A DNA stretch of 64,000 nt from Schlesneria paludicola DSM 18645 (lineage in GTDB: Bacteria; Planctomycetota; Planctomycetia; Planctomycetales; Planctomycetaceae). The notes beneath the pieces were generated by a model. It saw only the letters and a list, made by a program, of their open reading frames with translations, did no database searches and was not told the origin of the DNA. Positions 24,701 through 46,978 of this stretch are shown one piece after another. Position numbers and translations under genes: made by a program. The stretch lies in assembly GCA_945876035.1 (NCBI GenBank), contig CAMCMU010000024.1, forward strand, positions 1 through 64,000. The letters are read 5' to 3'. Every line of letters starts with the position of its first letter. Positions within the stretch are counted from its first letter, which is position 1.

Positions 24701-26398
24701 TCACGAGCCGAGAATCGACTTTCGACGGTTGACGTAGTCCCACACGACGAAGCGATCGAGATCTCGACCAGCGGTGAAGAACACGCGGCCCTTAGTCGAT
24801 TCCGCCAGACGGTGAGCAAAGCGGATGTCTTCATGCGTTTGCGACCAGCTGGGTAAAAGAAAAATGTTGATCACGATTCCTTCACGCTGACAGCGTAGAG
24901 CCTCGCGCATGGTCGCGGATTCCGTGGCGGGATCCGAGGGGTACAGTAAATAGAGAAGCGGTCCTTCGAAGTGGGCCGTGGGAAGTCCATCGGTAATCAA
25001 GATGATTTGGCGGTTGGGGGTATCGCGTGTCGACAGGAACTGACGCCCGAGTTGCAACGCGTGTTGGATATTCGTGAAGTGCGGCGGAATATCCGATTCG
25101 GTGACATCGTCGCGGCTCATGTCGGCTCGAAGTCGGACGACCGGGTCAAAAATCGTGACGACTTTGGGCAACAAGGTGACAACTTCACTGAAGTGACGCG
25201 GCTTCGCAAAGCTGGCCATCTCGATGAATTGCAGGAAGTCGCCCGGATATTCTCGGCGAATCAGACCGTCAAGCGCCAAGCCCATTCGCTTCACGTTGAT
25301 GTACTGCCCACCCTGTCGCATCGAACCGCTCATGTCCATCAATACCGCGGTGGCACACTTGGGGTTGTTGCGAGAGCGGTGAATGACGATATCCTCGGGC
25401 CGCATTCGTAATGGTCGCGAACGATCGCGGATCATGGCGTTCACGAGCGACTGTGGAATATCCATCTGTGACACCGAATCTCCAAACTCGTATTCCTTCG
25501 TGACGGGGAGTTCGACAGCACCTTCACCTTGAATCGGACCTTGATGGCGGCCCGTGCGCGACGCCTGCAACTGACTGAAAATTTGTTCGAGCAACCGACC
25601 CTGAAACAGGCGATAGGCTTGTGGGCTCAATTGATAGCCGTTCTTCGTCTTTTCCAAACCCTGTTGCGAGGCCAACTGCCGGACGAGTTCCTCAATCTGC
25701 CGCTGCATTTCCGTCAGCCCTTCGAGCTGTTCCGCATCTGCGAACTGGCTCAACTCTGAAAAATCGATTACGGCGATCTGCGCCGTCTTCGCGGCCTCCT
25801 GCAGTTGCTTCAACAGGCGGTCAATCGTTTCTAATTCCTCTTTGACAGCGAGGGCCTGATCGATGGTCAACGGCTTGCGTCCCGTAAACTCGTATTTCGA
25901 GGCGAGTTCGTCGACCTGATACTTGTCGCCTAACCGATCTATCAATTGAACGAGTTGTCGAGCGAACCGCGAGCGATCATCACCGATGCGATACCACAGA
26001 CTTTCCAGCTCACGAATTTGTTCGTCCCGCACTCCTTTTTCAAAGGCCGATTTCAGTGCGTCCGGCGGATGCGTGTTGTGAGCGAGTTTCGTGAACGAAC
26101 GCTCGGCGAGGTCGACCACCTGCTGTGTTTCCCATGTCGCCAAGATTTTTTGTTTTCGTTCGAGCAGCATCCTGCTGAGTCCCTCGAGGCTCGGTCCGAG
26201 GCCCGCGATTTGGCGAATGTCGAGCTTGATCGCCTGCGCCAATTCGGCCTCGCTCAATTCGCGCATGTCCCCGAATTGGAGCATGTGTTCGAATGCAGGT
26301 GAAACCAGATCGGGAGGTGACAGCGAGGGATTGGGAATGTTCCTCGGATCGTACCGCTGATAGGTATGGATCACGCCACCCAACGGGGGATTCTTCAT
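24701..26398 (-). CDS. VWA domain protein, MoxR partner (CoxE-like)
   Basis: A 565-residue cytoplasmic-looking protein. The N-terminal two thirds are helical and charged with likely coiled coils (EELVRQLASQQGL). The C-terminal third is a von Willebrand A domain with the MIDAS motif DMSGSM and a later ITDGLPTAHFEG. Such proteins work with MoxR-type AAA ATPases in metal insertion, protein maturation or stress responses. The AAA partner is encoded immediately upstream on the same strand (173-base gap). The start at 26398 is the first ATG giving a normal N-terminus; ATGs further up to 26458 are possible. Confidence 0.88.
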   Translation of the reverse strand: MKNPPLGGVIHTYQRYDPRNIPNPSLSPPDLVSPAFEHMLQFGDMRELSEAELAQAIKLDIRQIAGLGPSLEGLSRMLLERKQKILATWETQQVVDLAERSFTKLAHNTHPPDALKSAFEKGVRDEQIRELESLWYRIGDDRSRFARQLVQLIDRLGDKYQVDELASKYEFTGRKPLTIDQALAVKEELETIDRLLKQLQEAAKTAQIAVIDFSELSQFADAEQLEGLTEMQRQIEELVRQLASQQGLEKTKNGYQLSPQAYRLFQGRLLEQIFSQLQASRTGRHQGPIQGEGAVELPVTKEYEFGDSVSQMDIPQSLVNAMIRDRSRPLRMRPEDIVIHRSRNNPKCATAVLMDMSGSMRQGGQYINVKRMGLALDGLIRREYPGDFLQFIEMASFAKPRHFSEVVTLLPKVVTIFDPVVRLRADMSRDDVTESDIPPHFTNIQHALQLGRQFLSTRDTPNRQIILITDGLPTAHFEGPLLYLLYPSDPATESATMREALRCQREGIVINIFLLPSWSQTHEDIRFAHRLAESTKGRVFFTAGRDLDRFVVWDYVNRRKSILGS

Positions 26399-26571
26399 CA
26401 CAGGTTTTCCGTGTTTGCATCTTGAGGACGGCGGAGGAAGGCGAATCATTGGGGTCACAGGGGGAATTCAAACCTAGGCAGAGAACCGGAATCCTTTGGC
26501 ACCCCTCTCCCCTCCCCTGCGACTCTGGATGGCTTTGGTTTGTCTGTCTCCTCTGGTGGACACAGAGTATT

Positions 26572-27987
26572 TCAAACTTCGTATCGAATATTTCCTCGCG
26601 ACTGGCTGCGGGAGATCTTTTCGGTCGCATACAAGCCTGCGAGGACGAATTCGACGCACGCAGCGCGGACCGCCGGATCACTCGAAGCGTTCACATCAAA
26701 GGCTTTGTCCCAGGCGGGTGGAACGCGTTTAAGGCGTTCGGAATAGTGAGAAGAAGGCAGCATATCACCGACTTCGATCTTCACTCCTTGGCTGAAAATT
26801 TGCGAGATCTCATCCATCCCATGCTCGTCGATATACTCCTCAAACACCGTTCGAATCGCGTCCGCGATCAGTGAATCGAGGATCTGGCGTTCGCTCATTT
26901 GATGGCTGCCCATCAAATCGAGTTCCAGCTTGCCGAGCGATGATGAGTACAGATGTCCCAAATCGCTAATCCGAGGGACCGCGGGAGATTCGCCCAGACG
27001 GGCTCCCCGCTGTCGGGCGCTGGCGATCATGGTTCCGTAGTTGGCAATGCTGAATCGTGTGCTGACTCCAGACTGTTGATCGATGTACTTTGACTTCCTG
27101 GCGGCAACGCTCAGTTCTTCGATAATTTCTTTCATGAAACGGGGAACGATGACGGGAAAAGCTCCTTCGAGGCTGATGCGGGTCTCTTGCTCCATGATCT
27201 CGATGCCGAGATCCCGGTCCTCGGGATAGTGCGTATGGATCACCGAGCCAATCCGATCCTTAAGCTGAGGGATCACTTTACCACTGCGATTGTAAGTGGC
27301 AGGATTGGCGGAAAAGAGAATCAAGACGTCGATCTCGAATCGAACCGGGAAGCCACGAATTTGAACGTCGCGTTCTTCGAGAATATTGAACATTCCGACT
27401 TGGACCAGTTCATCGAGTTCCGGCAGTTCGTTCATTGCAAAAATACCGCGATGCATTCGCGGGATTAGGCCGAAGTGAAGCGACTCTTCCGCAGACATGC
27501 TGGTTCCGCCGGCAAGTTTGGCGGGGTCGATCTCACCAATGATGTCGGCAAATTTTGTCCCCGGAGCGAGTCGCTCAACGTACCGCTCGTCCCGCGGCCA
27601 CCAGCCGATCGGGACTTCGGACTCCGGACGGGTGGCCACGAGTTCTCGACAGACGCGCGTGATCGGTTGGTACGGGTCCTCGTGCAGTGGCGATTCAGGG
27701 TGCTCAATATAAGGGATTGCGTCATCGAGGAACCGAGAAAGGGTTCGCATCAGGCGGCTTTTCCCCTGCCCCTTTTCGCCAAGAAAAAGCATATCATGAC
27801 CGGCGATCAAGGCGATGTTGATCTCGGGAATGACCGTATTCTCGTAGCCCACAATTCCCGGAAAGAGAGGCGCGCCCTCTGCCAGTGCAGTCAGAAAATT
27901 GTCGCGTATTTCTTGTTTGACCGTCTTCGAGACCCAGCCACTGCGTCGCAGTTGTTCAAGATTTGTCGGTCGACTTTGATTGAGCAT
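26572..27987 (-). CDS. MoxR-type AAA+ ATPase (magnesium-chelatase-like)
   Basis: A 471-residue AAA+ ATPase with Walker A GEKGQGKS (residues 70-77), a Walker B/sensor region [13 protein letters not shown], and the helix-2 insert style of the MoxR/ChlI group ([34 protein letters not shown]). MoxR ATPases act as chaperones with VWA-domain proteins, and the VWA gene lies directly downstream. I infer that the two proteins form one complex. The client is not encoded next to them; the following genes belong to a DUF1501 operon. Confidence 0.93.
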
Positions 27988-33066: not shown

Positions 33067-34185
33067 TTATTGACTGGCAGACTTCGAACCTTTGGGCGAT
33101 CCGGCAATCGGAATTCCATTGGGAAGCGGCCGGGCAGCAACCGGGAATCCGTGCTCGTGCGCAAAGGTCTGTAACTTCCGATAGATCGCAAAGCTGTCCG
33201 GATAAACCCAAAAGGTGAGGGTCGAATCCGGGTCGGCACCAATCAGAGATTCATAAAAAAAGGAACCCTGCGACAACGCGATCTGTTCGGTTTCGCCCCT
33301 CAGTTCAGGCTCGGGAACGACATCCCACGATGACACGCTGATCTGATAGCCCCCGTGACCCGCGCGCAATTCATCAAGACCATTGAGAGTCTCAACCCGC
33401 ACCAGATAGTTCATCGTAAAACCGGCGAAGGGTCCCACCTGTCCCTGATGGGACCGAGTTCGAACCAGCCAGTCTTTGCGTCGTTCGATTTGCTCCTTGA
33501 GTTTCGTGACAAGGACTTCAATGGGCACTTCTGCCACTCGATTCTTTTCGAGGCGGTAGTGTTTCTCTTTCCCCGACACCGTCCTGCTGACCGGCGTGAG
33601 GTGATGCTGCAAGGACTCCACGGCCGGCGTCCGCTCCTCGAGAGTGTTCAGTTGAGCGAGCAGCCGCGCGAGTGTCTCTTTGGCGAGTCGGATGTCTGCT
33701 TTTTGGCTGGCGTTGGCTTCCAGAGTCGTATTCAATTGGATCTGTTCCAAGGCCACGCATGCGCGTGCTGTTTGCACGCGATCCTTCAACTCGGATTGTT
33801 GCCGCATGTGCGACTGCAGGGTCAAGGCGAGGTGTTCACTGTTTTTCGACAAGTCGGCGATTTCCGTTTCCAATCCCTCGACCCGGGCGACCAACTCGGA
33901 CGAAGGAGCCAGTTCCACCAACGGTGGTAACTCTTCAGGATCGATCGTGGAGAGGAGCGGTGTCGGCTCAGAATCTTCGACCAGACCCATTGTTTCAGGC
34001 AAATCGTTGATGAACGGCGGCGATGGAACGGCAGGTGTTGGCAATGTGGCCAAGCGAACCGGCATGCGGCCAACTTTGACTCCGGCGATCACAATCAAGA
34101 TGATCAAAATCCCGACGATATTGGCGATGACATCTAAAAATGAGTCGGAACCGAATACGATTTCAAAATCACGACGTCGACTCAT
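33067..34185 (-). CDS. single-pass coiled-coil protein, ExbD/TolR-like N-terminus with Asp18
   Basis: 372 residues. After a short basic N-terminus comes FGSDSFLDVIANIVGILIIL, one membrane segment (about 17-36) opening with FLDV and Asp18, the place of the proton-relay Asp in ExbD/TolR/MotB-type partners. A proline-rich linker follows, then a coiled coil (about 95-195). The C-terminal domain (about 255-360) contains TLTFWVYPDSFAIYRKLQTF, which loosely resembles the periplasmic ExbD domain. Its ATG overlaps the stop of the upstream gene (ATGA, 34182-34185), so translation is coupled. The TolQ-like gene heads the same operon. I infer a stator-partner role; no peptidoglycan-binding OmpA domain is visible. 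Confidence 0.75.
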   Translation of the reverse strand: MSRRRDFEIVFGSDSFLDVIANIVGILIILIVIAGVKVGRMPVRLATLPTPAVPSPPFINDLPETMGLVEDSEPTPLLSTIDPEELPPLVELAPSSELVARVEGLETEIADLSKNSEHLALTLQSHMRQQSELKDRVQTARACVALEQIQLNTTLEANASQKADIRLAKETLARLLAQLNTLEERTPAVESLQHHLTPVSRTVSGKEKHYRLEKNRVAEVPIEVLVTKLKEQIERRKDWLVRTRSHQGQVGPFAGFTMNYLVRVETLNGLDELRAGHGGYQISVSSWDVVPEPELRGETEQIALSQGSFFYESLIGADPDSTLTFWVYPDSFAIYRKLQTFAHEHGFPVAARPLPNGIPIAGSPKGSKSASQ

Positions 34186-36275
34186 GGGGTACCTCCCCGA
34201 GTCGCCAGAGGCCCGTTGGAACGGGTTGCCGCAGAGGGAGTTGCGTACTTGATTTTACCGTCGGTTGCATATTCTTTCGATGAGCCGAGGCCCGCTCGTT
34301 TCGTGATTGCGTGGAGACCCTCGAAGTTTGAATTGCCTTCCTTGACGACCACGAAGCACAAGTTTGGAGTCCAATAGAATCCGCGTGGTGGCTGCCCCCA
34401 CTCCCGCGCCTGCAAATCGAGAACGACGATGAGGCGTTCAAATGTCTGCTGATTTGATTCTCCGGGAGCGATGTGGATGGCGTGTTTATCAGAGACGACA
34501 AGGCGGTTCGCCTCGACCTTAATGCGGACTTCTCGTTCCAAGCCGATCACAGCATCGGGGGCCGACAACCCCCAGTGCTTTCGTCGCAGGTGTTCGGGAT
34601 CGGCCGGTTTGCTGCGGGTGGAGCGTGGTTTCGTTCGCAGGTCCTCGACTGCGATGGATGGCGTTCCAGTGGAACCCAGGCCGATATCCATCGCTGCCGT
34701 ATTACGGCTCGTCTTGTTGTCACCAGAATTGGCCGCGGTGCTTTCGACGGCCTCCGCAATCTGGAGTGACTCGATGCCGTCATCGGCCGGCGGCGCAGTG
34801 TCCGCTTCTGGCAAGAATTCCTTTGTTTTTGAGGCGGTTCGTGTTGGTTTAGACAGTGGATTTCGTTGCCTCACCGGCTGTTCATCACCGCCCACCGGTT
34901 GACGGTCTTGGTCCGCCTGTGACCCGCCTTGTGCGGGTTCATCGCTGAACTCTTGTCGCAGAGTTTCCAAGGGCGAAGATTCTGTGGCTGCCACGGAATC
35001 CCCCGGAATGTCGGTGGTCTTTTTGTGCCGTGAGGTGCCTCGCCGAAATTTGTCGATGCGTTCCCAACTTCGACTGCCGACTTCATCCCCTTCGCCAGTA
35101 ATATCGGTGACATCAAAACGTTTTGTTTTCTGACCCCCAGCGGTTGCAGAGTCACTGCCGCGGAAGGCTTCACCCCTCCCGCCCAGTCGACGACCGCCCC
35201 CGCCCGGGACACTTCCTGCGGCAAATGCCTGAATACTGTCACGCTCGGCAAGCAATTGTTTCACCGCAGCCTCACAGGTCGTCCTCGCGGCCGGATCAAC
35301 GATTGGTTCTTGAAGTGTCGTCTCCGCTTCAATCAGTTCGTATCCATGCGGTTGTTGGAGGGTTTCCAACATTCGCATCGCAATGTAGTAGGTGATTGTC
35401 CCACTCGGGCGAACCAGTATCAGGACGTAAGGCTCCGGTTCGTTGGTCGGTTTCGGTTGCTTCAGGTTCCATTGCGTCCAATAACGGACCAGGGAATTCG
35501 TTCCAGCCAGCAAAGGATTGACGCGTGGAGTAAACCCTTCCAGATCTTCTGCTTTGAGCACAATGTTTTCAGGAACAAAACGAATTCCGTCTGCCGTACA
35601 TTCGATCAAGATCGGCCTCCGCGACGTGCCGGATTGAGGATCAAAAGGGACCACCGCGACGTTGTGAATCTCAGTCGCTTGAGCAATCTGTGCCTGTTTG
35701 AGTCTCTTCTTCACCAGCGAGATTTGTTGCTCTAAAGTTTGTCGTTCCCGCACTGTCGCATCGCCCTTGAGCGACGACAGTTCTCCCGCAAGGCTGGCGA
35801 GTTGTCGCTCCCATTTATCCAACTCATCTTTTAGGGCCGTGGTCCGTTGTTCGGCAGCCTCCGTCAAGGGCTGTCGTTGATTGAGGTTGCAGGCGTGATC
35901 GTCGCGGAGTTTTTCCAGTTGTCCGGCCCTCTGATTCCACTCCGCAAGCAGATCCTCAAGCTCCCGTTCTCTGGCTTTCAACTTTGCCGAATGGTCTGCG
36001 CGAGATTGTTTGCGCTGTTGAAGATCACTCTCGGACTCTCGCTCATCAGGTGACATAGAAATGATGCGAGGTTTGAGTAACATCGGAGCGGGCGCCGAAA
36101 TGGGTGGGGCTGGAGTCACATTCGGCGACTCGGAGACGGCTTGTGCAATAGCCCGTACGCGTATCTGTCGAGTTGTGACGAGCAACAGAAAAATCAGCGA
36201 ACCCATGGTACAGACGAGGACCGCAAGAAACGGGAAGAGCGCGACCGACATCGTTTTTTTGCTGCGGCGGGCCAT
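34182..36275 (-). CDS. single-pass coiled-coil protein, ExbD/TolR-like N-terminus with Ala in place of Asp
   Basis: 697 residues. The N-terminus RRSKKTMSVALFPFLAVLV leads into one membrane segment (about 14-36). It aligns without gaps with the downstream protein, FLAV here against FLDV there, so the channel-partner Asp is Ala18. Then come a proline-rich spacer, a strong coiled coil (about 65-200), a domain with EPYVLILVRPSGTITYYIAM (about 290-340), a Gly/Ser/Thr-rich disordered stretch (about 360-570), and a C-terminal domain (580-697). The ATG at 36273-36275 puts the basic residues right before the membrane; a GTG at 36308 is the alternative. It is the middle gene of the operon, 83 bases after the TolQ-like gene. 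Confidence 0.72.
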   Translation of the reverse strand: MARRSKKTMSVALFPFLAVLVCTMGSLIFLLLVTTRQIRVRAIAQAVSESPNVTPAPPISAPAPMLLKPRIISMSPDERESESDLQQRKQSRADHSAKLKARERELEDLLAEWNQRAGQLEKLRDDHACNLNQRQPLTEAAEQRTTALKDELDKWERQLASLAGELSSLKGDATVRERQTLEQQISLVKKRLKQAQIAQATEIHNVAVVPFDPQSGTSRRPILIECTADGIRFVPENIVLKAEDLEGFTPRVNPLLAGTNSLVRYWTQWNLKQPKPTNEPEPYVLILVRPSGTITYYIAMRMLETLQQPHGYELIEAETTLQEPIVDPAARTTCEAAVKQLLAERDSIQAFAAGSVPGGGGRRLGGRGEAFRGSDSATAGGQKTKRFDVTDITGEGDEVGSRSWERIDKFRRGTSRHKKTTDIPGDSVAATESSPLETLRQEFSDEPAQGGSQADQDRQPVGGDEQPVRQRNPLSKPTRTASKTKEFLPEADTAPPADDGIESLQIAEAVESTAANSGDNKTSRNTAAMDIGLGSTGTPSIAVEDLRTKPRSTRSKPADPEHLRRKHWGLSAPDAVIGLEREVRIKVEANRLVVSDKHAIHIAPGESNQQTFERLIVVLDLQAREWGQPPRGFYWTPNLCFVVVKEGNSNFEGLHAITKRAGLGSSKEYATDGKIKYATPSAATRSNGPLATRGGTP

Positions 36276-36358
36276 GTTTTGCAAATCCGCAACGAAGACA
36301 GGGAGCACAAAAAAACATACGACGATTCACTTTCCTCATGGCTGTCCGGCCGCAAGGG

Positions 36359-37825
36359 TTACGCGGCTTTTGCTTTCGCACGCGCTGTCAGCAAGATCAC
36401 CGCGGCGTTGAGATTCAGCAGTGTTTCTTCGAGCGTGTCGACGACACGCACGGTATCGAGGTTTTGAACTAACCGTTGTTCGAGCCGAATCAGTTCAGAC
36501 TCCCCTTCTGTAATTTTCAGGAGACTTTCTCCTTGGTGACGCAGTTCGGTGAGCTGATCCGTCATTGCGAGGGTTGCGATGTGGAGACGCTCGGTCCATC
36601 CGCCGACTTCGGCGGCCGTTGATCGCGTCATTTCTGCCATCTGTTGAACCTGACCGTCTCGAGCGGCGATGAGATCCCCATGGAATGCCTTCCACGTTTC
36701 GGCAATGAGAAAAGCACCGCGTTCATGGTGTTCCGTCAGAGCCGTTTGTGATTCGGCCACCTGATGGGCAATGATCGTTGAGGCGGATTGATATGTGGCA
36801 ACAAATTCAACACGCGCTGCTGCGAGTTGTTGTGCGTGATCGACCAGAGTGGAAGAGAATCCGTCTTGAAGTGCTTGGTCGAGCATCTGCTGCTGTCTCG
36901 CCAAAGTTGATGTCCAACGGTCTCGCAGTGATTCGAGAGAATTTTGCCAGAGATCCGTCTGTCGATTGATCATGTCTTCGGTACGCGTCAGCAACTGTTC
37001 CGCAGCCTGGGTCTCGGCAAGAATCATTGGACCGTTGCCGGAATCATTGGCCGGGAAGAGGCTGAGCAAATGCTTGACTCCAAAGTCTTCGACGTCGTCA
37101 AGCGTGTTCTGCTCCGATTTTTCAATGACGAATGTCGTGAAAACCAGAATCATCGACAAAGCCAGAGACAGTGCCGTTGTATCAAACGCGACTGCCAAAC
37201 CTGCGGTGACTTCAGGCAGAGACGATTCCAACTGATCCGGTGTGATGTTCGCAATCGCCATCGTGATTCCGATGACCGTTCCCAGAAAACCCAAAATAGG
37301 AACGGCCCACGTGATGGTGCGAATCAGGGCGTAGCCGTCGCTCAACCTTGCGGATCCCAGTTCGGCGAGATAGCTCAGGTGCCCTTCGAGGCCGGCGGCG
37401 GATCGACATCCGATGACGTACGCGCTGATCTGACGAATGCGTCGTACGAGATGGGTATCGGCAGAACGCTGAGCCACCAACTGGAGTTGTTTTTCTACGG
37501 CTCCGGCGATCGTCACCGGATCGGCTTGCGGATCGAGTTGTAAGCCCTTGAGGAAGTCGCCGGCCAGCGCGCGTCGTTCCGCGGGAATACACATGCCCTT
37601 CATTACGAGTGTCGAGATCCCCACGAAAAACAATCCTGTCGTGGCGTACTCAATCCAATGGGCGGTGAAGTAGTGTTCAATAGACTCTTGGTAGACGGGG
37701 ACGTAAGGCAGAGCGGCATAAAATGCGAAAGTCAGTCCAGCCCCCCACAGCCAAGGGGACCTGAGGACGACGCTGAGGCCTCGAGCCGTCGATCTGGTGG
37801 GAGAGGTCTGGATGGAGTTCGTCAT
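36359..37825 (-). CDS. MotA/TolQ/ExbB-family proton channel with long coiled-coil tail
   Basis: 488 residues. Four membrane segments lie at about 24-44, 58-76, 167-192 and 205-235. The last two carry the family signature (AVPILGFLGTVIGITMAIAN and GLAVAFDTTALSLALSMILV) with the conserved Gly and Thr positions. A cytoplasmic loop of about 90 residues sits between segments 2 and 3, as in TolQ/MotA. A coiled coil of more than 200 residues (265-488) follows, much longer than in ExbB or TolQ and recalling ZorA of the Zorya defence system. It leads the operon with the two single-pass proteins. The family forms pentameric ion-driven stators; what this one drives is unknown. Confidence 0.88.
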   Translation of the reverse strand: MTNSIQTSPTRSTARGLSVVLRSPWLWGAGLTFAFYAALPYVPVYQESIEHYFTAHWIEYATTGLFFVGISTLVMKGMCIPAERRALAGDFLKGLQLDPQADPVTIAGAVEKQLQLVAQRSADTHLVRRIRQISAYVIGCRSAAGLEGHLSYLAELGSARLSDGYALIRTITWAVPILGFLGTVIGITMAIANITPDQLESSLPEVTAGLAVAFDTTALSLALSMILVFTTFVIEKSEQNTLDDVEDFGVKHLLSLFPANDSGNGPMILAETQAAEQLLTRTEDMINRQTDLWQNSLESLRDRWTSTLARQQQMLDQALQDGFSSTLVDHAQQLAAARVEFVATYQSASTIIAHQVAESQTALTEHHERGAFLIAETWKAFHGDLIAARDGQVQQMAEMTRSTAAEVGGWTERLHIATLAMTDQLTELRHQGESLLKITEGESELIRLEQRLVQNLDTVRVVDTLEETLLNLNAAVILLTARAKAKAA

Positions 37826-38399
37826 ACAACGCGATTCCTGATTGTTTTTTCAAAGTTTCGGGTGATGCGGCAAGGAGATCTGCTCGAGGGGGCCTCTATC
37901 CTTATTTTCATCCGCGGAAATCGCAGTCCGACATACGCCGCAATAAGCTTCGATCGGCCACAGGCTGGGTGTGAATACCCGTGAATTCTGAACCAATTCC
38001 AGCGGAAATGAACGCTCCGGCATTATCTGCAGATGAGGACTCTCCTTTTGCCTTTTCGAAGCTCCGTGAATCACGAGAGAGTTCCTGCAGACGTCATAGA
38101 GAGTACAATCGTCAAGGTTTTGCTCCGAAGTTGAGGTTAATTTTGAGACGGATCGGGACGAATGGTTCTTGTCGTCAAAATGAGAAGGTCCGCCGTGTTG
38201 GAGACATCAAGGCGAACGTGGAGCATTTCACTCCGTAGATCATCTCCAATATTTTTAGGCGGATTAAACAACTCTTGTTTGCGAAACGTGGTGTCGGTTC
38301 CGTATTCTGTAAAGTCGAGGTCGCGCCCTGACCGGATAATCGGCTCACTTGATTTTCGAGCGGCATGCGGCGAACACCCGCCAGTGGAGGAGTTTTCAA
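37826..38399. promoter_or_regulatory. divergent intergenic region, TolQ-like operon / giant helical protein
   Basis: About 570 bases separating the divergent TolQ-like operon and the 1,320-residue protein gene, so it should hold both promoters and perhaps shared control. Frames inside are short and lack ribosome sites. No obvious operator repeat was seen. Confidence 0.4.
38386..38392 (+). promoter_or_regulatory. ribosome binding site deciding a TTG start
   Basis: GGAGGAG followed by seven bases and TTG (38400). The frame is open further upstream to another TTG at 38349, which lacks any such box, so this site fixes the start of the 1,320-residue protein. Confidence 0.75.
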
Positions 38400-41300
38400 T
38401 TGAAGTTACGTCCACAAGACGCCGCATTCACGCAGGAGCTGCTCGGCTATTTGAATTTTTCCGGAGGCCGTCCTGATCCAAAATTTCAGAGGAATCTTGA
38501 CGAATTCTGGCAGGTTGTTCCCGCAGCCTTAGTTCCCCTCACCCTGCGGCAGGTGCTGGCGGATCTCCAAGAAAAATCGACTGCCTTTGCAGACATCACT
38601 CAGGCTGAACAGGTCATTTCGCTGACTTTTGATCATGTGCTTCCGGCATACCGGGAGCACCATCGTGATTTGTTGTTTCACCTGAAACCAGAGGATCTGC
38701 AACAGTCGTATTTTGTGGCGAAGGTTTTTGAGGCGGTTCTGGAACAGGGTGCTCCTTGGGGTGACCGGAGCCGCGTTGTCGCAGGAACGCTTGATCGGTT
38801 GAATGATTTTATCGGGTATCGTCCGATCGCAATTCTCGAAAACCGTCGTAAATTGGAGCCCTATCCCCACGAGCGATTTCGTCCGCTGCCGATCTACCTG
38901 CGTGGTGCTGGGGTCGCCGCCGGTCCCTATCGTGCCCTCATCACTCGCACGCTGAATCTGCTTCGTGAGTTGCCCCCCCGATTACTGGCAGAGGCCTATT
39001 TTGACCTCGAGCAACTGGAAGAGTTGGCGGTCGATTTGCGCGCGCATGATCACCTGCACCCAGCGAATAAGAGAACGAACTACTTGTTCGGCGAATGGGA
39101 TCCGCATCAGATCGATCTGAAAGGACGCTATCGGCGGTTTGTGGTTCGTAAAATCATTCTCGATGCCCTGCTGGATTGGTCTGCCAAACAAAAACGTGTT
39201 GATCCCGACGAGACCCTTTTCGATATTTCGGCCGTCTTGTGCGGCACCATCCTGATGGCATCGTCAATCAGTGGTGACGGACCCGACTGCCACGATTCCA
39301 GCGTGACACTCACGTCGCTGTTGCCGCGTGTTGCACGCCAACGGGATGAGTTTTATGCCGTGCTGTCCCAGTCTTTGACGGGAGTACGTGCCAAGCGTCT
39401 TGGACGACATGCTAAGCAGACTCGACAGCCGTTCGGGCATGTCCGCCAAGCATTGAACATGTTTCTCGCGCAGTACGGTGCGCAACAGATTCAGCGGCGT
39501 CAATTGGCCTATTTATTTGCTCGAATGGGCTACGCGGAGGCGAGTCTGCGTCAGGCGGAGATCATTCCCTGTGCGTCGGCTCGATTTGAGTGCGAAGTGC
39601 TCTGCCGGATTCACTCCGCCCGGCGGATTGTCGAACAAAAACAGATCTCGGAAGCGTTTCGGCTTCTACAAGCGGGCGAAGAGTATCTCCACCGTGGCAT
39701 CGAGTGTGGTGCAATCGTGGATCCATGGAATATTTTGGGATTTCAGGGACTCTTTCCCCTGTTCGTCTCACGCGAAGACAGTGTCCCGGACCAGCGGATC
39801 GAAATGCTGTTTCACATGATCGAATCGTTGCTCGATGCCTATTCGCGAACACTTGAAGAAGCCGCCGCGTGTGGTGAGAAGTCTCTGGAACTGGCGATCT
39901 CGCAGCGCTATCAACAATTGGCGGACTTCTGGGATCGCTTCGGCACACTGGCCGTTCAAGATCTTCCCCGCATCGCCGCTCACGAACAACTGGATTCCGC
40001 CGAGCATGTCGCGCGGGCCCTTGCAGAATGGAAAGCGGTGGGAGAAGCCGCGGGTGATATGCTTTTTTGGCGAGGACATGTGGGACAATTTCAATCGGCC
40101 AAGGCCTACGCTCAAGTGGTCTCGGCGCTGCTTGAGCGTCGCGATCGCATTGCGGCACTGGGCCTGTTGATGCAATGGCTCAGCCAGCATGAAACGGTGG
40201 GACTGGAAGCGGGCCATATCTCGTTTGAAGATTTGATGCTGTGGTGGATGGGGCAGGCCATTGAGGATGGTTCGACTTCGAAAGAAGACCCCTGGCCGCT
40301 CGTTCGCCGAATGTTTGACTACCTCGAAGCCAATGCCAGCGAATTGTGGTCAGCACCCGTCTATAAGTCGACAGCCTTCTTAAACGATGCCGCCACGGAC
40401 TCCGAATGGCCAGATGGCGAAGACGAAAGGCGCAGTGACGAAGACGAAAACGAGAAGGAATTATTTGACGCGGCCTACGATGAGGTTGTTTTCCGCGACA
40501 GCGCGGATGATGGACAAGAAGGCCCGACCATGGACGATGGACAGGGTTCGCCGGGAGGCTCCGAATTCGACTTGATCGAGAAGCAACTCGAACCGCGACT
40601 CAAATTTCTGCGGATGGTGGCTCAGTTGTGGCAAATGGCGGCGACGTTGGCCGTCGAACGCGAAGTCAGTGCGATCCGAGATGAGTCGAAAGACACGCGG
40701 GCCGCCCGAGTTCTGCAGGCCGAATCGCTCCGAGACTGGCTGAAATATTCCGAGCGACTTCAAACAGATCTGTCCCAGTTAATTGATGCGTTATGGAAGG
40801 GGGACATTGATGAATCCAGTGGCGAACATGACGCCAATGTCGAATATGATTCGCAGTTGCAAACAAAGCTCTACCTGATCCAGACGGCACTCGCCACATG
40901 GCTCAGCCTCCGGTCTGCACAGTGGTGCTTGGCCTGCGCGATATCTCCGGAAGATGAGTCGGTTCGCAGTTCAGCCGAGGAAGTGCGAATCATTGATATC
41001 TATCGCGGCATTATGCAACGCAATGGCGATGAAGTTCGCCGCGTTCTTCCAGGACTTCTCCGCTCACTGCAAAACAAACCGCTCTTGTATGTGCCTCTCG
41101 AACACGGCGGTGAGCCGAAGCAAATTCTAACGGCACGGGCGATGCAGATGCTGGTGAGATTTCTTGTCTCCCATCTTCCACAATTGGGATTACTCCGTGA
41201 GACTTGGCACCTATTACGCACCGCACGCCAAATGGAGCGTTCGTCGCGGCCCCGTGGCATGGCGGTCACCGAATTTGATCGCCTGTTTCGGATTGCGCTG

Positions 41301-42362
41301 CGTAATTCACTGGAGTGTGTCGTCCAAGCCTCGAATGACTGGAAAGGTGGCCGATTCCGTGACGAAGATCTGATTGAAATCGTGGGCGAAATCGTCGAAC
41401 TTTATCTCGATCAGTGGCTCGAACACAGTGGCACAATGAGATTGTCCTCGGTGGAGGCTCTGAAGATCGAGCACATTTGGACGGACACCGCTCAGTTCGT
41501 GAAGACTTATGGATCGGATATTCTCAATGCGAGAATCCTCACGCTCGGAAATGTGCGAGCCATCCTCCACAGCGGAGTCTCAAAGTTTCTGGAATATCTG
41601 GAACAGAACGAAGACCCGCTCCACCCTGTTCGCCTGCTGAATGATCTGCGCAATGGAAATGTCGATCGTGAGAAAGCCATCGAACAACTGCATTTGATCT
41701 ATCAGGTTGTTGTCGAAAAGTTTGATAGGTTTCTCGAATACAATACGACAACCACTCAGTCGGACTACGGTGAGCAATTTTTCAGCCTATTGGACTTTCT
41801 TCGACTGGAAACCACATACGAGAGAGATGCTTGGAACCTTCTGCCGGTCGCAGTCGCTCATGAAGTTCTAGCGCGACAGGGAAAACCCGCAGCGGCGGTC
41901 ATCTGGGAAGATGTTTTTGCGGTCAAAACCGAGGATATGGCCGACACGCACTTGGAAGGATTGGAATCCCTTCAGAAAAAATATGGGATGAAACTGCTCT
42001 CCATTTCCAATCACCTCCAAGAACGCTTCGTCAAGCCCTTGGCGGTCAATCACATGTTGGCGCGCATTCGTCCCGCCTGTGAAGACGCTGGCGTGGGTCG
42101 ATCAAATTCCCCATCATTTCTTGCGTTGCAGGCAGGTGTGGAAGAGTATGTCAAGACAACATCGGGGTCTGGTCTTGATATTCCTCTGTGGCTCAAGACC
42201 TTGGAAGATGAACTGAACAGGGTTCATGAATCAGGAGATCAGCCGGCCCCAGACGCAGAACCGCAATTGCGTCTGCCGGCTCCCGCAATCACGCTGAAGG
42301 ATATCCGCCAACAACTCAAACAGTGGAAGGAACCGCCCAGCCAGCGCAAGGGCAAAGCGTGA
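38400..42362 (+). CDS. very large soluble helical protein of unknown function
   Basis: 1,320 residues from a TTG start with a near-perfect ribosome site. No signal peptide or membrane segment is visible, so it should be cytoplasmic. The sequence is almost wholly alpha-helical in character, rich in Leu, Glu, Arg and Trp. A very acidic low-complexity insert at about residues 665-720 (GEDERRSDEDENEKELFDAA) separates two helical halves. The C-terminus is basic. I recognise no catalytic motif, Walker box, zinc site or named repeat; TPR- or HEAT-like superhelix folding is possible. It is divergent from the TolQ-like operon, which suggests but does not prove a shared role. Confidence 0.85.
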   Translation: MKLRPQDAAFTQELLGYLNFSGGRPDPKFQRNLDEFWQVVPAALVPLTLRQVLADLQEKSTAFADITQAEQVISLTFDHVLPAYREHHRDLLFHLKPEDLQQSYFVAKVFEAVLEQGAPWGDRSRVVAGTLDRLNDFIGYRPIAILENRRKLEPYPHERFRPLPIYLRGAGVAAGPYRALITRTLNLLRELPPRLLAEAYFDLEQLEELAVDLRAHDHLHPANKRTNYLFGEWDPHQIDLKGRYRRFVVRKIILDALLDWSAKQKRVDPDETLFDISAVLCGTILMASSISGDGPDCHDSSVTLTSLLPRVARQRDEFYAVLSQSLTGVRAKRLGRHAKQTRQPFGHVRQALNMFLAQYGAQQIQRRQLAYLFARMGYAEASLRQAEIIPCASARFECEVLCRIHSARRIVEQKQISEAFRLLQAGEEYLHRGIECGAIVDPWNILGFQGLFPLFVSREDSVPDQRIEMLFHMIESLLDAYSRTLEEAAACGEKSLELAISQRYQQLADFWDRFGTLAVQDLPRIAAHEQLDSAEHVARALAEWKAVGEAAGDMLFWRGHVGQFQSAKAYAQVVSALLERRDRIAALGLLMQWLSQHETVGLEAGHISFEDLMLWWMGQAIEDGSTSKEDPWPLVRRMFDYLEANASELWSAPVYKSTAFLNDAATDSEWPDGEDERRSDEDENEKELFDAAYDEVVFRDSADDGQEGPTMDDGQGSPGGSEFDLIEKQLEPRLKFLRMVAQLWQMAATLAVEREVSAIRDESKDTRAARVLQAESLRDWLKYSERLQTDLSQLIDALWKGDIDESSGEHDANVEYDSQLQTKLYLIQTALATWLSLRSAQWCLACAISPEDESVRSSAEEVRIIDIYRGIMQRNGDEVRRVLPGLLRSLQNKPLLYVPLEHGGEPKQILTARAMQMLVRFLVSHLPQLGLLRETWHLLRTARQMERSSRPRGMAVTEFDRLFRIALRNSLECVVQASNDWKGGRFRDEDLIEIVGEIVELYLDQWLEHSGTMRLSSVEALKIEHIWTDTAQFVKTYGSDILNARILTLGNVRAILHSGVSKFLEYLEQNEDPLHPVRLLNDLRNGNVDREKAIEQLHLIYQVVVEKFDRFLEYNTTTTQSDYGEQFFSLLDFLRLETTYERDAWNLLPVAVAHEVLARQGKPAAAVIWEDVFAVKTEDMADTHLEGLESLQKKYGMKLLSISNHLQERFVKPLAVNHMLARIRPACEDAGVGRSNSPSFLALQAGVEEYVKTTSGSGLDIPLWLKTLEDELNRVHESGDQPAPDAEPQLRLPAPAITLKDIRQQLKQWKEPPSQRKGKA

Positions 42363-42423: not shown

Positions 42424-43368
42424 TCAAACGATCGAACAGCCACCTTTCTCGCTGCAACTCCCGCAGCCGCCGGCTGCCCCGTCTGTACCACAGCCCTGTG
42501 CCTCATCTGTTCCGCACTTCGGGCCGCAACCTGCTTCTGCACGCTCCATGAACTGCAGGAACTCAATGCGGGCGTCGTATTGTTCTGCGAGTTGCTGTGT
42601 GAGATCCGTGATTTCGGATGGCGGGTCGCCAAGAAAATGAAAGATGATGTTTTCTCCGTCAAGCAATTGCTCGACGTCGATCAACTCCATTGGCATGTTT
42701 CGTTCGGCAAGAAGTTTCTGGCAGGCGTCGAAGGCCCGAGCCTCACCCTCGTGCGCTGCGCGTTCTTGGAGCTTGTCTTCTTCGGTCATGCTTCTTAACA
42801 GCTCCCCCGCGTGAGAGTTGTCGGCCGTGGTCGGGGCCCCCTCTCTTTCAGAAGTCAAGACCTCACCAGATTCGAGGCCGCGGTGCGTTCGAACAACAAC
42901 ACGCTCCTTGATTTCGTATCCGACGGATGCCCGGCTGTGAAACCAACTCAGGTGACCCATCGAACCGAACCGAACGAGATATCGCAGCCCCTCGATTTCT
43001 GGATCTGAAACGATACGCTCCGCAGGGAACTCCAGCAGAACCGCGTCGTTTTCGATAATCAGCGGGTACGTCCGAACCTTCGATCCGTTGTTCGGACTGA
43101 CACACACGCCAGTTGTGATGTCAAACTTCCATTGATGGAGTGGGCAACTCACAATGTTTCCGTCCCTCCCACCATGAGCGAGCTCGCCTCCACGATGGGG
43201 ACAGGCGTTGTCGATCGCGTGGAAGATTTTATTGACATTGAAAATGGCAATTCGTTGTCCCTGCACGTCAAAACGCGTAACAGATTCGGCCGCGAGATCG
43301 CCCACCATGCAGACTTTGACGAGCCGTCCTGTTCGTTGATCTGTCTCATTGTCTTTGAATGAAACCAA
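42424..43368 (-). CDS. Rieske [2Fe-2S] domain fused to PSP1 domain with Cys-rich tail
   Basis: 314 residues in three parts. Residues about 13-115 form a Rieske ferredoxin domain of the nitrite-reductase small-subunit type, with ligands Cys56-x-His58 (CPHRGGE) and Cys75-x2-His78 (CPLHQW). Residues about 129-273 resemble the PSP1 C-terminal domain (YaaT/RicT type): YLVRFGSMG, VVVRTHRGLESGEVLT, DACQKLLAERNMPMELIDVE, IIFHFLGD. The tail has six Cys in 31 residues (281-311). I place the start at the TTG at 43366-43368 after AAGGG; the frame is open to a GTG at 43449. No oxygenase or reductase catalytic domain is present. It converges on the giant helical gene with a 61-base gap. Confidence 0.87.
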   Translation of the reverse strand: MVSFKDNETDQRTGRLVKVCMVGDLAAESVTRFDVQGQRIAIFNVNKIFHAIDNACPHRGGELAHGGRDGNIVSCPLHQWKFDITTGVCVSPNNGSKVRTYPLIIENDAVLLEFPAERIVSDPEIEGLRYLVRFGSMGHLSWFHSRASVGYEIKERVVVRTHRGLESGEVLTSEREGAPTTADNSHAGELLRSMTEEDKLQERAAHEGEARAFDACQKLLAERNMPMELIDVEQLLDGENIIFHFLGDPPSEITDLTQQLAEQYDARIEFLQFMERAEAGCGPKCGTDEAQGCGTDGAAGGCGSCSEKGGCSIV

Positions 43369-43958
43369 TTCCTCACCCTTCCCCTGTTTGACAAGGTTTA
43401 TACCACAAGAATAATCAAGACACCGTCTGCCAAATCCAATGTGACACACCGAAGCATTCCAGCTTCGTCAGCAAGTGCCCTCTTGATTTCCTGCCGTCGA
43501 TTTGTTGATTTTCCATCGATTGCCCTGCGGGTCTCTCACCGCCGATGACTCGTAGCATGAACGGACGCATGCCAGATTGCCAGCATTGACCGATGTCTTG
43601 TCTTGCAAATTGAATGTTTTTGAAACAATTCATTGAGACAAAGTTGGACACATCGAGACAACACCCCCTGCAATCAGGTCGGACGCAACAGGTGACAGGC
43701 GGAATGAATCGGAGTTGAGGAAGTCTCCGCCGAGAAGACGCCGTGCGGATGACAAAGTTGTCAATTTGACATTCTCCGCAGTGGCCTCAGTGACATGCTG
43801 AACCCCTCTTCAATCGCGTCTCATGTTATTTTCGATCAGGGGGTTGAAAAAGCGTCGGTTGGCACGAAGTCTGCTGCATGGGAAGGAGTCATTATTCGGC
43901 AACGTTTTTGCCCGGTCCCAAAACCGAGCGTCTTCAACCCTGAGGGAGGGAGGATGCC
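43369..43958. other. divergent intergenic region
   Basis: About 590 bases between the divergent Rieske-PSP1 gene and the small helical-repeat gene. No family signature appears in any frame. It ends with a strong GGGAGGGAGG ribosome site for the plus-strand gene. Confidence 0.4.
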
Positions 43959-46012: not shown

Positions 46013-46978
46013 ATGACGCGTCGGTACGTGACGGATCTCCGGGACGGAGATCTTGTTGATGAGGTGTTCTTAGTCGCCGACAAGCAGTTGCGCGCGAATC
46101 GTAATGCGGCACTCTACTTGACGGTTGATCTTCGTGATCGAACCGGAGTCGTCAACGGGCGAATGTGGAACGTGTTGGAAGAGTCCTGCAATCACATTCA
46201 AGTCGGTGGATTTGTGCGAACACGCGGCAAGGTGCAGGTCTTCCAAGGGACGCTGCAAATGATTCTGACCCATATCGATGCCGTACCCGTGTCGAGCATC
46301 GACCCTGTTGATTTTGAGTCGATGACGTCTCAAAAGATTGAAGATCTGTTCGTTCAACTCCGAGCGATCATGCTTGGTTTTGAGGATCCTCAGTTGCGGA
46401 TGTTGATGGAGTGCTTCTTGCTCGACGATTCTTTGATGCGGTTACTGGCTGAAACTCCCGCCGGCGTGAAGGCACACCACGCCTATCGGGGCGGGCTGAT
46501 CGAACACGTCGTATCGCTGATGCAAATCGCGAAAAAAATGTGTGAGGTCTACGTGGACCTGAATGCCGAACTGCTGCTGGCGGGGATCTTTCTGCACGAT
46601 ATTGGCAAACTGCGTGAGCTCTCCTGTACCGCGGGATTCGTTTATACCGATGAAGGCCAACTCCTTGGCCATCTTGTGATTGGTGTCGAGATGTTGTCCG
46701 AAAAGATTCGCCAAGTGGAGCAACTGACAGGTCAGCCGTTTTCAGACGAGCTGGCTTGGAGGCTGAAACATATGATCGTGAGCCACCATGGGTCGTACGA
46801 ATTTGGTAGCCCGCGTCTGCCAATGACACCCGAGGCTGTCGTACTTCACGCGTTGGACAACCTCGATGCAAAGCTCCATGAATTTACGCGCGCGATTCAA
46901 GATGACCCCAACAGCGGATCGCACTGGACACTGTTTATTCAGCGACTGGATCGTAAAATTTTTAAAGGAGCTCGATAG
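46013..46978 (+). CDS. YhaM-type OB-fold/HD-domain 3'-5' exoribonuclease
   Basis: 321 residues. An N-terminal OB-fold (1-90; FLVADKQLRANRNAALYLTV, GRMWN, GGFVRTRGKVQVFQGTLQM) is followed by an HD phosphohydrolase domain. Metal residues are seen in HHAYRGGLIEHV (155-166), FLHDIGK (His195-Asp196), LGHLVIG (His220) and VSHHGSYEFGSP (258-259). This order is that of Bacillus YhaM/CbfA, a 3'-5' exonuclease acting on short RNA and single-stranded DNA. Length fits (about 314). It stands alone, with a perfect palindrome about 107 bases after its stop. Confidence 0.9.
   Translation: MTRRYVTDLRDGDLVDEVFLVADKQLRANRNAALYLTVDLRDRTGVVNGRMWNVLEESCNHIQVGGFVRTRGKVQVFQGTLQMILTHIDAVPVSSIDPVDFESMTSQKIEDLFVQLRAIMLGFEDPQLRMLMECFLLDDSLMRLLAETPAGVKAHHAYRGGLIEHVVSLMQIAKKMCEVYVDLNAELLLAGIFLHDIGKLRELSCTAGFVYTDEGQLLGHLVIGVEMLSEKIRQVEQLTGQPFSDELAWRLKHMIVSHHGSYEFGSPRLPMTPEAVVLHALDNLDAKLHEFTRAIQDDPNSGSHWTLFIQRLDRKIFKGAR

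Follow-up and report, generated by a model that had tools for sequence, protein, structure and literature searches.

How could a stator motor run with two unlike axle partners, of which only one carries the ion-binding Asp? The question is raised by four genes in a 64,000-nucleotide stretch of Schlesneria paludicola DSM 18645 (positions 1 to 64,000 of contig CAMCMU010000024.1, assembly GCA_945876035.1; hereafter the window), which encode a stator-type channel, S1, two different single-pass proteins, alpha and beta, and a divergent giant protein. In the excerpts of PMC9389320 and PMC11890865 available to us, motors of this class are 5:2 assemblies in which a channel pentamer bearing a Ser/Thr ring encloses a pair of axle helices, and the ions are carried by the Asp residues of this pair; in current models, as excerpted from PMC9389320, the two equivalent Asp alternate and give ten steps per turn. 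We propose that S1, alpha, and beta (the triad) form an ion-driven stator of the ExbB/TolQ/MotA class with an alpha/beta heterodimer as its axle, serving as a core envelope device, and we place the probability of this reading at roughly 0.5. The four genes lie where an earlier reading made from the letters of the window (the sequence-only reading) had put them:

36359..37825, minus strand: S1 channel of the MotA/TolQ/ExbB family, 488 amino acids (assigned by its PF01618 match and the channel tree)
34182..36275, minus strand: alpha partner, 697 amino acids from its conserved start (no Pfam ExbD match)
33067..34185, minus strand: beta partner, 372 amino acids (no Pfam ExbD match)
34182..34185, minus strand: 4-base overlap of the alpha stop and the beta start (from the open reading frame coordinates)
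38400..42362, plus strand: divergent gene for the alpha-helical giant, about 1,320 amino acids (open frame from 38349)
37826..38399, no strand given: divergent intergenic region between the channel and the giant

The triad is transcribed from the minus strand in the order channel, alpha, beta, while the giant diverges on the plus strand. S1 scores 42.1 bits against the Pfam family MotA_ExbB (PF01618), above the cut-off of 22.9, and is therefore a member of the family. A simple hydropathy scan finds three clear transmembrane (TM) stretches in it, at about residues 62-82, 167-192, and 216-234, followed by a C-terminal tail of about 245 residues that is poor in Pro and Gly (13/244). The sequence-only reading had described a four-helix channel; the fourth TM, around residues 23-44, stays under the threshold of the scan and is plausible by eye, and a four-helix build is likely. 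The TM4 motif AFDTT carries D215 (codon at about 37183-37181), and among the S1 alignment rows D215 and T183 are each present in 47/47, T216 in 96%, and T217 in 98%. S1 has the conserved Thr/Ser ring in TM3/TM4 that marks the MotA/TolQ/ExbB family. T217 aligns to a Thr of ExbB and D215 to an ExbB Leu, in an alignment that is weak (E 0.16).

Alpha and beta each have one N-terminal TM stretch in the hydropathy scan, as the sequence-only reading had claimed. The alpha open reading frame spans 708 amino acids and extends to base 36308, with the conserved start at residue 12 (base 36275). Its TM is LFPFLAVLVCTMG, with an Ala at residue 29 of the open reading frame, where beta has Asp; behind it follow a Pro/Gly-poor helix-like stretch, a conserved region D1, a low-complexity linker of about 200 residues, and a second conserved region, D2. 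The beta TM, SDSFLDVIANIVGIL, carries Asp18, and beta has the single N-terminal TM and one conserved Asp that characterize ExbD/TolR-type proteins. An AlphaFold2 model of beta (predicted local distance difference test, pLDDT, 82.6) places the TM at residues 14-39, a single helix of 89 residues at 96-184, and a globular domain at 201-365. The two partner genes are likely to be translationally coupled through their 4-base overlap.

The TM segments of alpha and beta are paralogous, as judged from profile alignments. HHalign relates the two at 94-95% (E 4e-8 and 1.7e-7), and in this alignment the Ala of alpha falls on the Asp of beta. Between this triad and sister systems described below, the corresponding TM segments match at 98.9% (alpha of S1 and S3), 97.0% (alpha of S1 and S4), 97.8% (beta of S1 and S3), and 96.0% (beta of S3 and S4). 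Behind the membrane, regions D1 and D2 of alpha resemble each other at 40-57%, and their likeness to the beta domain is faint (11-13%). In one locus (L142 of genome G041) alpha starts with a beta-type TM, Asp included, so the two TM segments seem to be interchangeable.

The acids of these segments were counted across the best 80 of 272 relatives recovered by scanning genome contigs with the beta alignment, using motif patterns that miss variants lying outside them; a similar scan with the single channel sequence recovered no relative. A single TM acid, always an Asp, is found in each of the 78 beta sequences, of 80, that fit the pattern; of the other two, L105 is cut off and L142 reads GSFLD, with the Asp present. 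Alpha is different: at the position aligned to the beta Asp, the 65 sequences visible to the pattern have Ala in 52, Thr in 2, and Asp in 11, and 54/65 have no TM acid. A further 13 loci were not seen by the pattern, 12 being cut off or without the motif and L142 having its beta-type TM. The channel tree splits the channels into S1 (47 rows), S2 (21), and a zinc-ribbon-like type, S3 (5). S1 channels, the window's included, pair with a non-Asp alpha in 46/47 cases (44 Ala, 2 Thr; the sole Asp is L113), while S2 goes mostly with an Asp-bearing alpha (12/16); Fisher's test gives p 8e-9 on a table counted by eye, a value that ignores the relatedness of the rows. Channel residue 215 is Asp in 47/47 S1 and Asn in 17/17 S2 channels, the latter count leaving aside the near-identical rows L163, L165, L175, and L177. 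In the other families of the class, alpha has Ala in 8/8 loci, beta Asp in 8/8, and the channel Asp in 7/7, the motif being recognizable in 7 of the 8 channels. An alpha without Asp is thus probably an old trait.

Such counts invite a strict rule by which the ring Asp replaces the alpha Asp, and we rejected it, as exceptions occur across S2, S3, S4, and L113. S3 systems of family f2 combine ring Asn with alpha Ser in 6 of 21 visible cases, in S4 a ring Glu coexists with an Asp in alpha, both places are Asp in L113, and genomes G034, G096, G067, and G048 have a lone S2 channel and an Ala alpha. The channel tree implies few independent changes, with L113 on a long branch. The beta Asp is the one acid found in all four types, S1-S4.

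Conservation throughout a bacterial class shows that the triad is more than a chance assembly. We take the class to be Planctomycetia from the names of the triad-bearing records, which include Schlesneria, Gimesia, Planctomicrobium, Thalassoglobus, and Fuerstiella. Among 392 genomes of the phylum (28 of the window's family, 12 from elsewhere in the class, and 352 outside it), a strong beta match, with E below 1e-50, occurs in 26/28, 12/12, and 0/352, respectively, that is in 38/40 genomes of the class, and this bears out the clade specificity proposed by the sequence-only reading; outside the class there are 20 weaker beta matches, the best at 2e-12. The giant follows a similar distribution (28/28, 11/12, and 0/352), and 37 of the 40 class genomes have both giant and strong beta, 2 only the giant, and 1 only beta. 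A separate set of 101 genomes from the window's family has a channel match in 98 (paralogues only in some of them) and the giant in 99. Genome G029 has a weak beta match only, with alpha near a contig end, and G456 lacks a giant match and has a beta homologue (L258, 1406-2506) whose N-terminal TM is without the usual motif, SDSFLD.

As to gene order, the 80 named loci comprise 27 with all four genes, 30 with channel, alpha, and beta, 5 with giant, alpha, and beta and no channel, 16 with alpha and beta, and 2 with beta only, which amounts to the triad in 57/80 and alpha with beta in 78/80. In 16 of the 23 channel-less loci the available sequence ends less than 1 kb before the partners; the 7 truly without an adjacent channel are L086, L088, L089, L094, L095, L098, and L142. 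In other families of the class the order channel-alpha-beta is found in 8/9 loci, the ninth starting at a contig edge inside alpha. When 14 genomes were searched with alpha and beta profiles, 12 had one strong alpha/beta pair, the other two being G029, with its alpha at a contig end, and G070, with neither partner.

What the sequence-only reading observed is real, and its interpretation is right in part. It held that known stators pair a channel with one kind of single-pass partner, and here it was wrong. The Myxococcus gliding motor AglRQS, in the excerpts of PMC3169522 and PMC9389320 available to us, combines the channel AglR with two TolR/ExbD-type partners, AglQ and AglS, and tandem ExbD matches recur among the matches listed in the genomes studied here (for instance adjacent canonical genes, both with a TM Asp, at L295 1612-2663 and L298 1519-2498). 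AglRQS resembles the triad in having a TolQ/MotA-type channel and two different single-pass partners. AglQ (162 amino acids) and AglS (194) are both Pfam ExbD/TolR members according to the excerpted PMC3169522, and both are predicted to carry a TM Asp, the composition of their dimer being given as unknown, in the excerpted PMC9389320; in contrast, neither partner here matches ExbD among the families seen, and alpha is without the Asp. With ExbB-ExbD and TolQ-TolR the triad shares a PF01618 channel, the Thr ring, and, in beta, a single-pass partner with one TM Asp, and differs from them in its two diverged partners, the long helical stretch of beta, the long channel tail, the two conserved periplasmic regions of alpha, and the Asp D215 in channel TM4.

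What is new, then, is an axle partner without Asp, partner families not recognizable as ExbD by profile, and a class-wide presence, and beyond the sequence-only reading stand the alpha without a TM Asp, the alpha-beta paralogy, and the sister systems. No description of the triad appeared among the papers listed by our literature searches, of which one, on a phrase, may have failed because of the slashes in the usual name. The available excerpts of PMC12505986, which surveys the relatives of MotA, those in Planctomycetota included, do not describe it either, and a term search of the main text of PMC10632474 (transposon-directed insertion site sequencing of P. limnophila) found no TolQ, ExbB, or MotA.

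Our own reading is of an asymmetric, one-Asp stator that would serve a cell-envelope task. A heterodimer of two diverged paralogues, alpha and beta, would replace the usual homodimeric single-pass axle in a 5:1:1 complex, with beta D18 as the only proton-binding Asp and alpha filling the second axle place without one. Each axle would then have a single Asp to gate the protons that pass the pentamer's Thr ring; with one proton-carrying axle helix, about five 72-degree steps per turn would be expected instead of ten, unless the channel TM4 acid participates. Alpha, with its conserved region, low-complexity linker, and second region, probably passes force to the wall or outer membrane because of its long periplasmic reach. 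The channel tail is a likely dock for a scaffold in the cytoplasm, for which the giant is a candidate. Of these proposals the asymmetric axle is the one of interest, and it can be tested directly: if true, a motor that occurs in nature with a single Asp in its axle would test the need for both Asp and the separate roles of the two chains, and it would be a candidate dedicated envelope motor in nearly every sampled genome of a class with unusual, poorly annotated envelope biology.

Several results weigh against this reading. Against canonical ExbD of the same clade, the HHalign matches of the TM segments are weak (alpha 32%, beta 5%), although both the alpha and the beta positions fall on the ExbD Asp in these alignments, and among control pairs of unrelated TM windows one reached 44%, all others staying below 2%. 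ExbD (PF02472) is absent from the Pfam matches of the window's alpha and beta at E 1, neither protein has a family match above a curated cut-off, and ExbD is not among the best 25 of 101 families, listed by member number, for 18 beta members or among the best 25 of 70, listed likewise, for 20 alpha members. No ExbD/TolR structure appears among the matches listed for the beta globular domain (best Foldseek E 0.059, best VIA Z 5.0); these matches are mostly RNase-H-like folds and weak, and we build no claim on them. Heptad periodicity is not significant in the channel tail (427/2000 shuffles reach the observed value), in alpha 91-215 (193/2000), or in beta 96-184 (138/2000); the coiled coil of the tail is therefore unproven, and those that the sequence-only reading gave to the partners fared no better. 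In the Schlesneria-type genomes G034 and G096 the S1 channel is gone and a distant S2 channel is left with an Ala alpha, so that the pairing of channel type with alpha residue is not strict, and G070 has the giant with no alpha or beta match. Finally, loss of the alpha Asp is equally expected if alpha sits outside the ring. Profile searches of the Protein Data Bank with alpha and beta were dominated by coiled-coil matches and were set aside as uninformative.

This last point leads to the rival account of the axle, in which beta forms a homodimer in a 5:2 motor while alpha is a transducer, with its TM outside the ring and its Asp lost as protons were no longer carried. TonB and TolA transducers have a layout like that of alpha, with TM, linker, and C-terminal region, and the order of TM, helix-like stretch, conserved region, linker of about 200 residues, and C-terminal conserved region in alpha agrees with such a role, as does the missing Asp in 46/47 S1 rows and in 21/21 visible S3 loci. 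Unlike in those transducers, the alpha TM is related to the TM of its partner, and this paralogy, the retention of the alpha Asp in the S4 systems seen and in the majority of S2 systems, and the beta-type TM on alpha in one genome all fit a place in the axle better; we regard the transducer model as unlikely, though not negligible. Partners and channels need not match one to one, since G075 has S1 and S2 channels and one alpha/beta pair, and the two partners might thus be separate motors that share a channel as alternative 5:2 homodimers. However, an axle of two alpha chains would lack a TM acid in the S3 and in the majority of S1 systems, and alpha and beta stand together in 78/80 loci, which makes this improbable. 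Even more remote is a Zorya-like antiphage motor in which the long tail recruits effectors, as in ZorA, which too has a long cytoplasmic tail (excerpts of PMC11890865). The PADLOC matches of the channel are indeed ZorA profiles (best 8.3e-12, across residues 162-366). Against this, profile scans (Pfam, NCBIfam, PADLOC) found no ZorB/OmpA match in either partner, in line with the sequence-only reading, nor the OmpA-like peptidoglycan-binding domain of MotB that would indicate a MotAB system; the giant has no PADLOC match, and 9 neighbours have no ZorC/D/E-like match (Pfam only), although one of them is the HD and OB-fold protein described below, which resembles an exoribonuclease. Since there is no OmpA-type partner or effector match, and the distribution is near-universal in the class and not patchy or mobile, the system is not Zorya by the tests made, and in the reading that we propose, the heterodimer stator is a core envelope device of Planctomycetia and not a mobile defence system.

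The remaining alternative concerns the giant, which may be an unrelated core gene and merely an old neighbour of a triad that is itself the stator; this is quite possible, if somewhat short of an even chance. A lack of co-occurrence of the four genes was to refute the sequence-only reading, and for the triad that refutation fails. The giant occurs together with strong beta at class level; the distance between it and the best match of the channel is 15 kb or less in 28/96 family genomes with both (19 genera), and greater in 68/96, many of them fragmented. Among single-contig genomes the two are within 15 kb in 7/13 and apart in 6/13 (the counts of 28/96, 19 genera, and 7/13 were made by eye). 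In the 11 genomes from other families that carry both genes, beta is found on another contig than the giant or at a distance of over 1 Mb from it; moreover, G070 has the giant without the triad and G456 beta without the giant. On the other hand, the proximity in those 28 genomes holds with S1 or S2 channels, chance would give it in about half a percent per genome by our own arithmetic, and the giant stands beside alpha and beta in 5 loci without a channel. The membership of the giant in the triad system is plausible and unproven.

The giant itself agrees with its earlier description as a divergent helical protein of about 1,320 residues, its start being likely near base 38400 (TTG). In a model that covers 1,183 residues, nearly everything is helix (mean pLDDT 75.5). 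The protein has no significant Pfam, NCBIfam, or PADLOC match and no match below E 0.96 among Protein Data Bank sequences, and its model resembles only generic alpha-solenoids (SKI3, FANCI/FANCD2, nucleoporins, and karyopherins), with a best VIA Z of 9.8 over 262 residues at 19 A root-mean-square deviation and a best Foldseek E of 1.4e-3. Because only such generic matches were obtained, we read no function from it. In family f2 another gene occupies the giant's place on the channel side near the triad (L251, L252, L255, L257, and L259), and we take its N-terminus to resemble an excisionase-type helix-turn-helix.

The triad also has relatives with different channels. S3 triads are present in the class and outside it, with alpha Ser in the 21/21 visible of 22 loci and a channel ring residue that is Asp in 15 and Asn in 6. 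The loci L169-L173 and L260-L281 are S3 triads, with an N-terminal CxxC zinc-ribbon-like motif in the channels read and a beta Asp where seen. The window's own genome encodes S4, a second two-partner stator (G000:C26, L290 2039-4664), with a channel of about 290 amino acids and a ring Glu; its partners are single-pass proteins of 278 and 304 amino acids with a TM Asp in both. Within the window's genus, the window genome has S1 and no S2 match, G075 has both, and G034 and G096 have S2 only, distant from alpha, beta, and the giant, with an Ala in alpha. Each of these four genomes has a single strong alpha/beta pair while their channels vary; one set of partners may thus be able to serve a channel encoded elsewhere. 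Lone S2 channel genes, not next to the genome's alpha/beta pair, were also seen at L162, L163, and L168 of this genus. A broader proposal would join the one-Asp heterodimer core motor (5:1:1, 72-degree steps) to a diversification of the two-partner design within the phylum, with S1-S4 as four or more parallel motors, of which some may use a ring acid instead of a second-chain acid; we consider it less likely than not.

Elsewhere in the window, a Pfam scan of the neighbouring genes finds a Rieske [2Fe-2S] domain fused to a PSP1 C-terminal region at 42424-43449, just beyond the giant, and at 46013-46978 a protein with an HD domain and an OB-fold, presumably similar to the exoribonuclease YhaM. 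At 24701-27987, a Von Willebrand A-domain protein adjoins an AAA/Mg-chelatase-like protein.

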